Below, piece after piece: positions 139 through 21,228 of a stretch of 64,000 nucleotides of DNA. Both the position numbers and the translations under genes were made by a program. Numbering within the stretch: the stretch's first letter is position 1; each line of letters opens with the position of its first letter. Source of the stretch: Actinomycetes bacterium (GTDB taxonomy: Bacteria > Actinomycetota > Acidimicrobiia > Acidimicrobiales > RAAP-2); contig JAJXUK010000008.1 in assembly GCA_021782915.1 (NCBI GenBank), forward strand, positions 1 to 64,000, in the 5' to 3' direction. The notes beneath the pieces are model-generated. The model worked only from the letters and a program-made list of their open reading frames with translations. It was not told the DNA's origin and searched no databases.

Positions 139-1671
139 CTAGATCGCGCTGGGCAGTCGGGCCTCGATGAAGCTGGGCCCCGGCGTGGCGTACGAGGCGC
201 TCAGCGCCGCGACCAGCTCCTCGGCCGTGGTCGCCACGCTGGCCCTCACGCCGAGCGAGCGGGCCAGGCCGGCCAGATCCATCGCCGGTCGCCCGAGGTC
301 GAAGAGGCGCTCGCTCTCTGCGTCCGGGGCCCCGAGGCGCCGGCGCTCCATGTCCAGGACCGCGTAGCGGCCGTTGGCCAGGGCCACCACCGTGACGTCA
401 AGGCCCTCGCGGGCCATCGTCCACAGGGCCTGGGCGGTGTAGAGCATCGATCCGTCGCTCTCCAGGGCCAGCACGCGCCCGCCCGAGGCCACGCCGGCAC
501 CCACGGCCGTGGGAAGTCCGTAGCCGATGGCCGCGCCGCTCAGGCCCGTCCAGTGGTGCCGGGCCGCGCTCGCCAGGGCCCTCTCGAGATGGATGCCACT
601 GGTGTTGGACTCGTCCACGATGATGGCGTCCTCGGGCAGTGTGGCCGCCACGGCCAGGGCCAGGGTCTCGGCCGTGAGGGCCCCGGACGGGCTGGTGAGC
701 TCGAGGGAGTCGGCGCCGAAGCGCTCGTTGGCACCCAGGCAGTCCGCCAGGGCCCGCAACGCCGGCTCGGCATCGACGCCCGGGCGGGTCAGGCTGTGGC
801 GGGTGCAGCCTTCCGGGAGCAGTCGACTGGGCACGTTGGGGTAGGCGAAGGCGGCCACCGGCTCGGGCGCTCCGACGAGGACCACGTGCTCGAGCTCGCT
901 CAGCTGGGCCAGGGCGAACTCGGGCACGTAGATGATGCGCTCCGGCGCGGGCACGCCCGCGCCGCGCGCCACGAAGGCCGGCATCGTCTCGAGCAGGACG
1001 CGCGAGCCGGTGGCGCGGCTCACTCGCCAGGCGGCTCGCAGGGCCCCCGCGCTCAGTCGCCCCCCGAGCACCAGCGCGCTGCGCGGGCCGAGCGCGTCGC
1101 ACGCGTCGTGCAGGGCGTGCTCGTCCGGCTCGGGGCACGCGGGCGCCGAGAACACCGGCCACGGCCCGGCGCCGGCCTCCGTCCACATCGCGTCCGCCGC
1201 CAGGGCGAGGGTCGCGATCGAGTGCGGCCACTGCAGCGTTGCGGCGACGGCCGCCATCGCGAGTGCCGGCGCCTGCGCCGCGGCGTCGACGCGGTCGAAC
1301 CAGCCGCCCAGGCTGCCGGCCAGGCCGCGCAGGTCGCTCTCGAGCATCGAGTGCAGCCCCAGGTGGCGCGTGGCGTGATCGCCCACCAGGTTCAGCACGG
1401 GTGAATGGGCTCGGGCCGCGTTGTGCAGGTTCGCCCATCCGTTGCCCAGGCCCGGCCCCAGGTGCAACAGGGTGGCGGCGGGCTCGCCGGTGACGCGCGC
1501 GTAGCCGTCGGCCGCACCGGTGGCCACTCCCTCGAAGAGGCAGAGCACCGGGTGCACGCCCGAGTCCTCGAAGGCGGCCACGAGATGCATCTCGGTGGTG
1601 CCCGGGTTGGCGAAGCACGTCGTGACGCCGTTGGCGCTCAGGGTGCCCAGCAGGGCTGCGGCGCCGTTCAC
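139..1671 (-). CDS. Thiamine pyrophosphate-dependent enzyme, acetolactate synthase large subunit-like
   Basis: 510 aa; N-terminal PYR-domain pattern (GVTTCFANPGTTEMHLVAAFED, EGVATGAADGYARVTG) and C-terminal TPP-domain-like SDGSMLYTAQALWTMAREGLDVTVVALANG. Confidence 0.8.
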   Translation of the reverse strand: MNGAAALLGTLSANGVTTCFANPGTTEMHLVAAFEDSGVHPVLCLFEGVATGAADGYARVTGEPAATLLHLGPGLGNGWANLHNAARAHSPVLNLVGDHATRHLGLHSMLESDLRGLAGSLGGWFDRVDAAAQAPALAMAAVAATLQWPHSIATLALAADAMWTEAGAGPWPVFSAPACPEPDEHALHDACDALGPRSALVLGGRLSAGALRAAWRVSRATGSRVLLETMPAFVARGAGVPAPERIIYVPEFALAQLSELEHVVLVGAPEPVAAFAYPNVPSRLLPEGCTRHSLTRPGVDAEPALRALADCLGANERFGADSLELTSPSGALTAETLALAVAATLPEDAIIVDESNTSGIHLERALASAARHHWTGLSGAAIGYGLPTAVGAGVASGGRVLALESDGSMLYTAQALWTMAREGLDVTVVALANGRYAVLDMERRRLGAPDAESERLFDLGRPAMDLAGLARSLGVRASVATTAEELVAALSASYATPGPSFIEARLPSAI

Positions 1672-16929: not shown

Positions 16930-17003
16930 GGGCGCTTAGCTCAGTTGGCTAGAGCAGCTGACTTACACTCAGCAGGTCGGGGGTTCGAGTCCCTCAGCGC
17001 CCA
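16930..17003 (+). tRNA. tRNA-Val (anticodon TAC)
   Basis: Full cloverleaf by hand: acceptor GGGCGCT/AGCGCCC, D-stem GCTC/GAGC, anticodon stem GCTGA/TCAGC with loop CTTACAC, T-loop TTCGAGT, discriminator A, no encoded CCA. Confidence 0.95.
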
Positions 17004-17007
17004 CGAA
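16992..17007 (+). repeat. Direct repeat copy 1: 3' end of tRNA-Val (CCTCAGCGCCCACGAA)
   Basis: Exact 16-nt match to 17060-17075. Confidence 0.9.
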
Positions 17008-17101: not shown

Positions 17102-17497
17102 TCAGACGGTAATTACGTGGATCAATTCTTCGAGACCAGTGAAGTCGTCTGGGTTGCGCGTGTAGAGCGTCAGACCGTTGGCGTGGGCGATTGCCGCGAT
17201 CAATAGATCGGCCATGCGTGATCGGTGGGTTCGGCCGGTGCTGGCAACAGCGGCAACTACTTGTCCAAAACTACGCGCGGCCGCAGCGTCGAAGGGGATG
17301 GGTTCGAAGGTCGCCTCCGTTTGCTGAAGGCGAGCCTGGCGGTTTGCTTGCTCGGTGACCGACGACGCCAGCATTGGTCCTGCGGCCAACTCTGCAAGAG
17401 TGATCGCACTCACCGAAATCTCCTCGGGCAAGGCTCGTTGAACCGCGGGTTCATCCCAGTCGATGACCACTGAAGTGTCGAGTAGGCCCGTAGTCAT
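17102..17497 (-). CDS. vapC: PIN-domain toxin, VapC family
   Basis: 131 aa; N-terminal LLDTSVVIDW, SAITLAELAAG, C-terminal RMADLLIAAIAHANGLTLYTRNPDDF. Confidence 0.9.
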   Translation of the reverse strand: MTTGLLDTSVVIDWDEPAVQRALPEEISVSAITLAELAAGPMLASSVTEQANRQARLQQTEATFEPIPFDAAAARSFGQVVAAVASTGRTHRSRMADLLIAAIAHANGLTLYTRNPDDFTGLEELIHVITV

Positions 17498-17746
17498 CTA
17501 GAACTCTTGGTCAACAAAGTTGTCGAAGTCGGCTCGAAATCGTTTTGCGTCAATGCGCGGCCCGGTCTCGGCGAAACCAGCGATGGCGGATTTCGGAACA
17601 ACGGTTCGCCGTGGCGCGAAGAGAGGGCGTAGTTCGGCCACCGGGATTCCGTTGCGGGTCACCACGAAACTCTCGCCCGCGACGACCTCGTCGATCACCT
17701 TGGCGTTCTCGTTGCGTAGTTCACGCTGGGCAATGGTTTTGGTCAT
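17498..17746 (-). CDS. Antitoxin, Phd/YefM (prevent-host-death) family
   Basis: 82 aa from MTKTIAQRELRNENAKVIDEVVAGESFVVTRNGIPVAELRP; directly upstream of the PIN toxin. Confidence 0.9.
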   Translation of the reverse strand: MTKTIAQRELRNENAKVIDEVVAGESFVVTRNGIPVAELRPLFAPRRTVVPKSAIAGFAETGPRIDAKRFRADFDNFVDQEF

Positions 17747-17777
17747 GAGATGTAGTGTAGCCAATTGTGCGACGCAG

Positions 17778-17790: not shown

Positions 17791-18458
17791 AGTGGCGCTT
17801 CAGTTCATCGTGACGTACGAGCTGTCGCACCGAAAACGTGTTCAAGAGAGAGCGTCGAGCGGTTCATTCGTCACAACAGTGGATGATTGAGAGTCGCCAC
17901 GGTGAGGCACCGGTTCTTATTTCGTCCCTCAAGGTCCACTGGTCTTCAAGTTCTCGACGTTTCTCTGGTTGAACGGGACGCTGCAATATCTGATCGCACT
18001 GGGACCGTCTGCGAAGCGTACGGCCGCATCCAGTGCCGGTACTCGCCGGCTCCACTTTCGTCTCGCCGCTTTTGTCCCGACGAGCACGTCGATGGCGTTG
18101 TCAACCGTGCGCTGCGGCGATTGAGGTGGCGACGTTGGCGGGTGTCGGCATTAGGTCGATCTCGTCGCGGACGGCTCGTGCGCATCTCCCTCCGGGCGGC
18201 GATGCGTGGGCCGAAATCACTAGGGGATCCGAGGGGTTGCTGGACTCGGTTGGTCGTGGTCGTCATTGGGAGCTCTCGGCATGCCAACGAGTTGTTTCCC
18301 CGCTTGAGGATTGCCCAGGGAAGGTCAGAGTCCCGGTCATTCCTCGGTGCGATTTGGGAAGGGGTGCACTTGTGGTGCGCTGATGGCTGCGAGAATAGGG
18401 AAATGAGCGGTGTCGGATGGTTTGTTGCGTGTCTTCTCCGCAGAAGTGGGGCTGAGGA

Positions 18459-19262
18459 ATGACGCCCGTCAGCACGCTCGGAGTAGCCCTGGCGCTTCGC
18501 CGACATGAATTGGGTCTGGACCTGACGAGTTCGGCACTCGCCATGGGAGTTAGTCGATCGACCTACACGGCCTACGAGATGGACTCGCGTCGGCTGTCCA
18601 TCGACACATTGCCCGTCCTGGCGAAGTTCCTCGATCTTCGGGTTGAGGAGATCCTCGATCTGTATGGAGCCACGTGTGTACTTCAGGCCAGCCGAGCGCT
18701 CCTGGGCGGCACCGATGCGCCGATGGCACGTGCCGAGGGATTCATCGAACGCGCTCGGGCCAACGGGGGCGGTCGCATGGACGTCGTGCGACGCGTGTAC
18801 TTCGACGGAGCCGCGGGCACGACTGACGATGAAGTTCCACGTACCTCGACTCTGCGTGACGGCGGTGGCGTCGCCACAGATGAGCCGGAGGGGACGACGG
18901 CGATGGACGAGTCGGACTTTCAACGGCCCGGCGACTACTCGCGAACTGGGTACGGCGAGGCAGCGATCTCACCGGTTCCGCCTCATCGTGCTCGTGGACC
19001 GCTCGCGTCTGAGAGTCCCGGTGCCTCGTCAGTGTCAGGTCTGAGGCGCGACCCTGACGGGTCGGGACCAACTGATGATCTACCCCAACCAGATTCGAAG
19101 AACAAGAACTCGAAGAAGTCGAAGGGCGCCACGAAGAACAAGAAGTCGAAGAAGTCGAAGGGCGCCACGAAGGTCAAGAAGTCGAAGACGACGAAGAAGT
19201 CGAAGGGCGCCACGAAGAACAAGAAGTCGAAGACGACGAAGAAGTCGAAGAAGAATCGCTAG
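18459..19262 (+). CDS. XRE-type HTH protein with a C-terminal lysine-rich repetitive tail
   Basis: 267 aa; HTH LGVALALRRHELGLDLTSSALAMGVSRSTYTAYEMDSRRLSIDTLPVLAKFLDL; final 54 aa are KNKKSKKSKGAT-type repeats. Confidence 0.8.
   Translation: MTPVSTLGVALALRRHELGLDLTSSALAMGVSRSTYTAYEMDSRRLSIDTLPVLAKFLDLRVEEILDLYGATCVLQASRALLGGTDAPMARAEGFIERARANGGGRMDVVRRVYFDGAAGTTDDEVPRTSTLRDGGGVATDEPEGTTAMDESDFQRPGDYSRTGYGEAAISPVPPHRARGPLASESPGASSVSGLRRDPDGSGPTDDLPQPDSKNKNSKKSKGATKNKKSKKSKGATKVKKSKTTKKSKGATKNKKSKTTKKSKKNR
19098..19259 (+). repeat. In-frame tandem coding repeat (36+36+45+45 nt) of the Lys-rich tail
   Basis: Units translate as KNKNSKKSKGAT / KNKKSKKSKGAT / KVKKSKTTKKSKGAT / KNKKSKTTKKSKKNR. Units 1 and 2 differ by 1 nt. 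Confidence 0.95.
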
Positions 19263-19389: not shown

Positions 19390-21228
19390 ATGTCTGAGTC
19401 AACGGACGCCGAAATCGGCCGCCCCCCTGAAGACTTCGACCTCAACGCAATTGGTGAGGGCCACCCCGTGGGCCTGCCGGTGTTCCAGCCAGAGGTCGAG
19501 CCGCATCTGCACAACCGGCGTCGGGTGAACAGTCCCTCCGAGTTGCAGAGCTTCCAGGACCTGGTGCACTTCAAGGCGAGTCATGGCCGCTGGCGCATTG
19601 CGCGTGACCTGGTTGGCCTGGTGCGGCGGGGCCACGCCGGTGAGTCGGACGAGTCCTACGGCGACAAGCTGCGTCGTGAGTCGCGCCGGGGCAAGACCGA
19701 GTCTTCGACGTATGGCCTGGGCACCATCGGGGGCCATCAGGTCGTCATCTTCGCCATGAATTGGGACTTCTTCGCCGGGTCACTCGGCGTCGTCTCCGGA
19801 GAGAAGTTCCAGGCTGCCGCCGACTTGGCAGTATCCAAGCGCTTGGCGTTCATCTCGGTCTACGCCTCGAGCGGCGTGCGTCAGCACGAGAACTTCGCGG
19901 GACTGACCCAGATGACGCGGATGGTCGAGGCGCTGCGGCACTTCAAGGACAAGGTCGACCTTCCTCAGGTCGCGGTCCTGCTCGGCAACGTATGGGGCGG
20001 GGTCTCGGCCAGTGCCGTGCCGAATGCCGATCTCATCGTGGCGACGTCGGGTACCAACTTCGGTTTCGCCGGTCCCAACGTGATCGAGGCCTTCGAGGGT
20101 GCCAGCGTGCCCAGTGGGTCCCAGAGCGCGGAGGCGAACCTTCTCGATCGAAATATCGACGTTGTGTTGTCGGATGTGGCTGACGTGGTCGTCTATCTCG
20201 AGTCCCTTCTGAAGGCAACGGAGCGGCCCGACAAGACGCATCAGCTCACCGCCGAGACGCCAACTCTGGTGCGTAACGTCGGGGCTCACGACGAGCGGCG
20301 CACGTTCCGCTTCGGAGGTCTGGGACTGCACGGTCCGCGCTTCGCCGACACCACGGATGGCGTGATTCTGCGGCCGGCGCCGAGTCGGCGCGCCGTCAGC
20401 GACGAGGCCGACGCGCTCGTCGCTCAGTACCAGGACCTGATGACCGACGCGAACCGGGTGGACTTCGAGTTCATCGTTCGCTTTGCCTTCACCGACGCGG
20501 TTGCTATCTACAACTACGTGCAGGAAGACGACATCCAGCGCTACCCGGCGATCGCGGGGGCCTTCGCCAGGATCGGCGCGCAGCCCTTCGTCGTCATCGG
20601 CACGCAGCCGTCGTATCAGCGACTGGGTGACGCCATCATCAAGCGACCGTCCAACCCGGGCCCCGAGGACTTCGAGTACATGGAGCGTCTCTTGGAGATG
20701 GGAGAGCGCCTGGGGGTGCCGGCGCTCTTCGTCACGGACACTCTCGGTGCAAAGCCGACACTGGAGAGCGAGCGGCGCGGTCAGTCACGCGCCATCGCGC
20801 GCTCGATCCTGCGCGGTATCGACTACGACGGTCCCGTCATATCGTTGGTGGCCGGGGCACTCGGCAGCGGTGGGGGCCTAGCCACGACTCCGATGGCCGA
20901 TCACGTCATCATGCTGGAGAAGGCCATGGCCTACGTCGCCGAACCACGTTCGGCCGCCTCGATCCTCTACAAGACGCCGAGTCCGACGCCTGAGCAGGTC
21001 AAGATGACACTGGCTACGATGCGCTCGACAGCCCAGGACCAACTTGAGCTGGGATTGATCGACTACGTGATCCCCGAGGACGCCAACCCGTTCGTGACCG
21101 TCGAACGGATCCACGCAGAGATCCAACGCGCCTACGTCGAGCTCTCCCAGATGTCTGTGCGCAAATTGCGCGCGCGACGCGAAGGGCGCATTCGATCGCT
21201 GCGCGCTTTTGACATCGTCCAGGAGTAG
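19390..21228 (+). CDS. Acetyl-CoA carboxylase carboxyltransferase, fused alpha/beta-type
   Basis: 612 aa; two ClpP/crotonase-like halves (FAMNWDFFAGSLGVVSGEKFQAAADLAV... and FVVIGTQPSYQR...SLVAGALGSGGGLATTPMADHVIMLEKAMAYV). Confidence 0.85.
   Translation: MSESTDAEIGRPPEDFDLNAIGEGHPVGLPVFQPEVEPHLHNRRRVNSPSELQSFQDLVHFKASHGRWRIARDLVGLVRRGHAGESDESYGDKLRRESRRGKTESSTYGLGTIGGHQVVIFAMNWDFFAGSLGVVSGEKFQAAADLAVSKRLAFISVYASSGVRQHENFAGLTQMTRMVEALRHFKDKVDLPQVAVLLGNVWGGVSASAVPNADLIVATSGTNFGFAGPNVIEAFEGASVPSGSQSAEANLLDRNIDVVLSDVADVVVYLESLLKATERPDKTHQLTAETPTLVRNVGAHDERRTFRFGGLGLHGPRFADTTDGVILRPAPSRRAVSDEADALVAQYQDLMTDANRVDFEFIVRFAFTDAVAIYNYVQEDDIQRYPAIAGAFARIGAQPFVVIGTQPSYQRLGDAIIKRPSNPGPEDFEYMERLLEMGERLGVPALFVTDTLGAKPTLESERRGQSRAIARSILRGIDYDGPVISLVAGALGSGGGLATTPMADHVIMLEKAMAYVAEPRSAASILYKTPSPTPEQVKMTLATMRSTAQDQLELGLIDYVIPEDANPFVTVERIHAEIQRAYVELSQMSVRKLRARREGRIRSLRAFDIVQE

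Follow-up and report, generated by a model that had tools for sequence, protein, structure and literature searches.

An XRE-type DNA-binding protein with a lysine-rich tail, kept across homologues in an uncultivated Acidimicrobiaceae genus

What might a small helix-turn-helix regulator gain from a long, lysine-rich tail resembling that of histone H1? This question is raised by a gene, here called xre-K, that lies in a 64,000-nucleotide stretch of actinobacterial DNA (contig JAJXUK010000008.1, positions 1 to 64,000; hereafter the window). The parts of the gene, all on the forward strand, are as follows.

18403..18462, + strand: candidate upstream ORF of 19 codons, its stop overlapping the xre-K start (ATGA); from the sequence, with relatives compared by eye
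18459..19262, + strand: xre-K, encoding a 267-aa XRE DNA-binding protein with a Lys-rich C-terminal tail (ORF call, Pfam, homologues)
18459..18710, + strand: XRE helix-turn-helix domain, aa 1-84, five helices (HTH_3, AlphaFold pLDDT, alignment)
18711..19097, + strand: linker, aa 85-213, disordered, Gly/Ser/Pro-rich, slightly acidic, no Lys (pLDDT and composition)
18777..18806, + strand: MDVVRRVYFD motif, aa 107-116, the sole conserved island of the linker, in clade I only (alignment)
19098..19259, + strand: Lys-rich tail of 54 residues (aa 214-267), 26 of them Lys and 1 Arg, with neither Asp nor Glu
19098..19133, + strand: tail repeat unit 1, KNKNSKKSKGAT, 36 nt
19134..19169, + strand: tail repeat unit 2, KNKKSKKSKGAT, 36 nt, 1 nt different from unit 1
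19170..19214, + strand: tail repeat unit 3, KVKKSKTTKKSKGAT, 45 nt
19215..19262, + strand: tail repeat unit 4, KNKKSKTTKKSKKNR plus the stop codon, 48 nt

Head, linker and tail of the xre-K protein

The sequence-only reading of this DNA had described a 267-aa ORF with an XRE N-terminus, a Gly/Ser/Pro-rich linker and a 54-aa histone-H1- or HupB-like lysine tail, and its frame, coordinates and tail counts are all correct. The N-terminus is a genuine XRE domain: HTH_3 (PF01381) matches aa 13-65 with an E value of 2.8e-7 and 30.9 bits against a Pfam cut-off of 23. AlphaFold predicts a confident five-helix HTH at aa 7-81 (helices at 7-18, 22-29, 33-40, 48-58 and 62-81), with a mean pLDDT of 90 or more over aa 11-80; the fifth helix is long and bears LYGATCVLQASRALL. 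Sequence and fold searches, Foldseek among them, relate this head to ordinary XRE regulators, namely SinR, an ICEBs1 regulator, ClgR, P22 C2 and restriction-modification controllers, and the predicted structure has the repressor fold of four to five helices (Foldseek matches to ClgR, SinR and P22 C2). Moreover, the recognition-helix region, SR(S/T)TYxxYE, is near-invariant in the alignment of homologues.

Beyond about residue 85 no confident order is predicted, the linker having a pLDDT of about 43-59. Its 129 residues include 42 Gly/Ser/Pro, 23 Asp/Glu and 14 Arg with no Lys at all, and the 213 residues outside the tail hold a single Lys against 21 Arg. The tail consists of four in-frame units as assembled, reads being needed for the exact repeat number; the unit lengths given by the sequence-only reading stand for the first three, as does the 1-nt difference between units 1 and 2, and the last unit, which it had put at 45 nt, is 48 nt with its stop. 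Units 3 and 4 are alike along most of their length, and the end of unit 4 diverges. Tandem Repeats Finder gives this array the top score of the window (169-174), and its GC content of 0.15/0.41/0.98 at codon positions 1/2/3 is consistent with coding in the xre-K frame. With 26 Lys in 54 residues and low pLDDT, the tail has the Lys-rich, disordered character of HU-type C-terminal tails, which is a resemblance and does not make xre-K an HU protein, since Pfam finds only HTH families in it and no Bac_DNA_binding domain (PF00216).

Upstream of the gene, comparison by eye reveals a TGCGAnACT-like element in clade I, about 60-70 nt ahead of the HTH-aligned start (18385-18462 in the window). It is followed by an in-frame GTG in G021, G030, G057 and G026, and by an upstream ORF of ~20 codons with its stop over the start in the window, G036, G105, G048 and G103. 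This arrangement suggests leaderless transcripts and translational coupling in clade I. When the upstream regions of 21 homologues were searched for operators, no palindrome or convincing operator common to them emerged.

Spread of the family and conservation of the tail

A profile search with the HTH domain recovered xre-K relatives in 23 of 100 genomes of the window's genus (13 of 60 high-quality ones) and in none of 73 other genomes of the same family; over these 173 family genomes, matches at E 1e-12 or better occur only in the window's genus. Across the order, 397 sampled genomes yielded one further weak match (2.7e-11), to a protein lacking the Lys tail. Among the genomes searched, the xre-K family is thus confined to one uncultivated Acidimicrobiaceae genus, which belongs to the soil actinobacteria. 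In named genomes, the window protein as query found no relative, and a search with the clade II alignment returned eight Acidimicrobiaceae metagenome-assembled genomes and one unrelated Chryseobacterium match; the named relatives carry the labels palsa, bog and fen, with one labelled RYN_33. A second HTH match in G030 (L065) was set aside, as it lacks the Lys tail and looks like another kind of XRE regulator.

The HTH tree separates two clades. Clade I (the window, G021, G030, G057, G026, G048, G115, G036, G105, G103 and G059) has longer tails and a linker motif MxVVERVYFD, while the nine genomes of clade II have short poly-Lys ends and acidic linkers with net charges of -8 to -73. The HTH tree is longer-branched and poorly resolved compared with that of the carboxyltransferase (ACC) encoded next to xre-K in the window; close pairs are common to both trees, which favours, without proving, mainly vertical inheritance of xre-K with many losses. 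Identity among xre-K proteins is 45-57% across the aligned N-terminal part, as against 86% for ACC.

With respect to the tail, a Lys-rich stretch of 8 to 26 Lys lies at or near the C-terminus of all 20 homologues whose C-terminus is intact, the window's included; the remaining three break off at contig ends or runs of N. At least seven Lys fall within the last 20 residues in 17 of the 20, and in the others the Lys-rich stretch extends or sits further in. On the contigs that carry the homologues, 0 of 299 unrelated predicted ORFs have seven or more Lys in the last 20 residues, six minus-strand family members not being counted as exceptions. We rely on this contrast, which argues that the tail is not due to chance, in place of per-protein Fisher tests of Lys against Arg, which are biased because the tails were chosen for high Lys. 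Every homologue tail contains more Lys than Arg, a notable preference because Lys is scarce in an ORF sample of these genomes (2.3% versus 7.7% Arg). The linkers span 41-180 residues, and neither linkers nor tails can be aligned.

Judged from these sequences, the tail is a selected family trait and a kept working part of the protein, conserved as composition and not as sequence. The sequence-only reading had named uniformly tail-less homologues as the finding that would count against it, and the opposite is the case. Its proposal of recent in-frame repeat expansion accounts for the sequence of the window's tail; it does not explain why tails exist at all, because in most homologues the same composition arises without the window's tandem repeat. 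On this comparison, the repeat is a lineage-specific way to build the tail.

The genomic slot of xre-K

In the window, xre-K stands between the following genes, of which the tRNA and toxin-antitoxin genes had already been recognised in the sequence-only reading.

16930..17004, + strand: tRNA-Val (TAC), edge of the variable slot; the same gene in the relatives G057 and G048
17102..17497, - strand: VapC-like PIN toxin (Pfam)
17498..17764, - strand: Phd-type antitoxin (Pfam)
19390..21228, + strand: fused carboxyltransferase (ACC) with AccD-like and AccA-like halves, directly downstream of xre-K in the window and three related genomes

The gene order in G057 (CHAD, tRNA-Val, VapBC, xre-K, ACC, YbjQ, radical SAM, CDF) is that of the window plus two extra genes. 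G021 and G030 have the ACC side of the slot in common with the window, G048 lacks ACC there and carries xre-K between tRNA-Val/CHAD and radical SAM/CDF, and in G115 the gene lies near radical SAM/CDF. The contents of the slot vary, and its GC content is lower than elsewhere (0.56-0.64 versus 0.66-0.72). No integrase was found among the ORFs between tRNA-Val and xre-K. To call xre-K island-encoded, as the sequence-only reading did, is too strong: the variability and lower GC are real, yet the core flanks are common to relatives, no integrase is seen by the tRNA, and genomes that pair closely in the ACC tree also do so in the HTH tree. By gene order, the slot is better described as an old, flexible region flanked by core genes (CHAD/tRNA-Val to radical SAM/CDF).

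Several neighbours deserve mention in their own right. The 612-aa fused ACC was matched at E 1e-60 in 63 of the 100 genomes of the genus; adjacency to xre-K is limited to the window and three close relatives. Between the window and G057, the VapC/antitoxin pair is 94-97% identical compared with 86% for ACC and about 45% for xre-K, which suggests that VapBC at the tRNA-Val site was exchanged recently and independently of xre-K. The neighbourhood of xre-K includes a CHAD protein in the window (about 1.6 kb away), G057 and G048. At other loci xre-K neighbours surface proteins, a solute-binding protein, an epimerase or PPK2; in G005 a PPK2-type polyphosphate kinase (L057:8041-8961) is convergent with xre-K, and four clade II genes adjoin genes for large surface proteins, rich in repeats, that combine List_Bact_rpt repeats with an OmpA domain at the C-terminus (L056:3999-6545, L059:9834-13082 and L058:6019-8031 by Pfam; L055:55-1035 by similarity). 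No partner gene is common to all xre-K loci, clade I being found partly in the tRNA-Val/ACC slot and clade II often near envelope genes, and in the absence of a constant neighbour the context names no xre-K target.

Possible function and relation to known systems

In our preferred reading, to which we assign a probability of roughly 0.6, xre-K is a genus-restricted, site-specific XRE regulator whose Lys tail adds nonspecific DNA affinity. From the domain layout, the predicted disorder, a tail kept in composition without sequence and the use of Lys over Arg, we infer how such a protein may function. The N-terminal HTH (aa 7-81) would bind a specific operator, probably as a dimer, and a flexible linker of ~130 residues would carry a polycationic arm that touches the DNA backbone regardless of sequence, with a longer residence time, a higher nonspecific affinity and perhaps contact with a nearby DNA segment as the outcome; a limited gene set would be regulated in this way. 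The HTH head and its near-invariant recognition-helix region argue for a real operator and one kept type of DNA site, and the Lys tail argues for added nonspecific affinity, so that a combination of specific and nonspecific contacts is supported as the most economical mechanism. By analogy with the Lys tails of HU and eukaryotic histone H1, the tail probably clamps the regulator onto DNA. This type of role has precedent in actinobacteria, where TopA, Ku, HupS/HupB and HrdB carry lysine repeats; in TopA they stabilise the complex of enzyme and DNA, and Ku and HupB need their Lys-rich domains to interact with DNA (PMC7398561; PMC5676037). The acidic linkers of clade II could offset the tail, and family members need not all bind DNA alike.

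The same architecture could instead serve a nucleoid-associated or xenogeneic silencing protein, with the XRE head seeding at sites and the tails bridging or coating long DNA stretches in the manner of EspR or tailed HU. The likeness of the tail to those of H1 and HupB and the report of EspR, an HTH regulator, as a nucleoid-associated protein (PMC3315491) speak for this, and the genome leaves room for a tailed nucleoid protein: its single PF00216 match is a 91-aa HU (L114:1501-1776) that, unlike HupB/HupS, has no Lys-rich tail, and no credible Lsr2 was found in it, the best match scoring under the cut-off and lying on the opposite strand of a MetH-like ORF. We nonetheless regard this role as unlikely, because a general nucleoid protein would be expected to be near universal and no more than 23 of 100 genomes of the genus (13 of the 60 of high quality) carry xre-K, and because it evolves fast relative to ACC. 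More doubtful still is a lineage-specific chromatin protein, in which the XRE head and H1-like tail would silence or compact DNA, with tail length tuned by tandem-repeat slippage, in a genus with a tail-less HU (in the window's genome) and no Lsr2 found. A repressor that came from a phage or mobile element, is domesticated or in transit in the flexible slot next to the tRNA and bears its tail as incidental basic low complexity would fit the phage-repressor-like HTH, the nearby tRNA-Val and VapBC, the patchy distribution and the lower GC; it is less probable again, as the tail is present in every intact homologue, other contexts included, the close pairs of the ACC tree are kept in the HTH tree, and no integrase or phage gene was recognised near xre-K.

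The tail might also act elsewhere than on DNA. Polylysine binds any polyanion, and the favouring of Lys over Arg fits published reports that acetylation controls HupB and Ku (PMC7398561), so the main targets of the tail could be RNA, ribosomes or the envelope, or its lysines could be sites of regulated acetylation or pupylation, with DNA contacts secondary. This seems very improbable given that the tail is joined to a DNA-binding domain in every member and no other domain was recognised. The least probable of these readings has the tail target polyphosphate, or a granule, instead of or besides DNA and thereby give the regulator a link to starvation, in the manner of AlgP, a protein with an H1-like tail that associates with polyphosphate granules and spaces them (PMC9239181). 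The CHAD protein in the slot of the window, G057 and G048 and the PPK2 gene adjoining xre-K in G005 point this way, but the CHAD adjacency reflects one inherited slot and not an operon, and the other xre-K loci contain homologues of neither that CHAD protein nor the G005 PPK2.

xre-K joins a known head to a known type of tail, a combination for which our literature search found no published precedent; the search matched literal terms in the open-licence literature and is weak evidence on this point. Lys tails on unrelated DNA-binding proteins (HU, Ku, TopA, the sigma factor HrdB and the H1-like AlgP) are a recurring bacterial device, and a small XRE family that keeps its tail while linker and tail sequences turn over offers a clean natural experiment. 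Such a family would make it possible to ask how strongly the function of a bacterial regulator depends on nonspecific electrostatics, and whether changes in repeat number can adjust the length of its tail.

In terms of known systems, ClgR, SinR and the restriction-modification controllers have an N-terminal fold like that of xre-K; to our knowledge these XRE regulators have neither a Lys tail nor a long disordered linker, and we know of no Lys tail on EspR of Mycobacterium tuberculosis. The likeness to EspR, an HTH regulator reported to be nucleoid-associated (PMC3315491), is at the level of the HTH superfamily. Pseudomonas AlgP and PhaF, like xre-K, have a basic tail built from tandem repeats (H1-like KPAA repeats), and AlgP repeat number varies among clinical isolates (PMC9239181); the AlgP N-terminus, however, is another helical domain, and its KPAA repeats differ from the KKSKGAT of xre-K. 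Actinobacterial TopA and Ku bear the same kind of tail on unrelated DNA-binding heads, the TopA of the window's own genome having a Lys/Ala tail, and are enzymes or repair proteins, not HTH regulators. Mycobacterial HupB and Streptomyces HupS, finally, share with xre-K a disordered Lys-rich tail on a DNA-binding domain, whereas the head of xre-K is an XRE HTH and not HU, its linker is long and its distribution is patchy within one genus.
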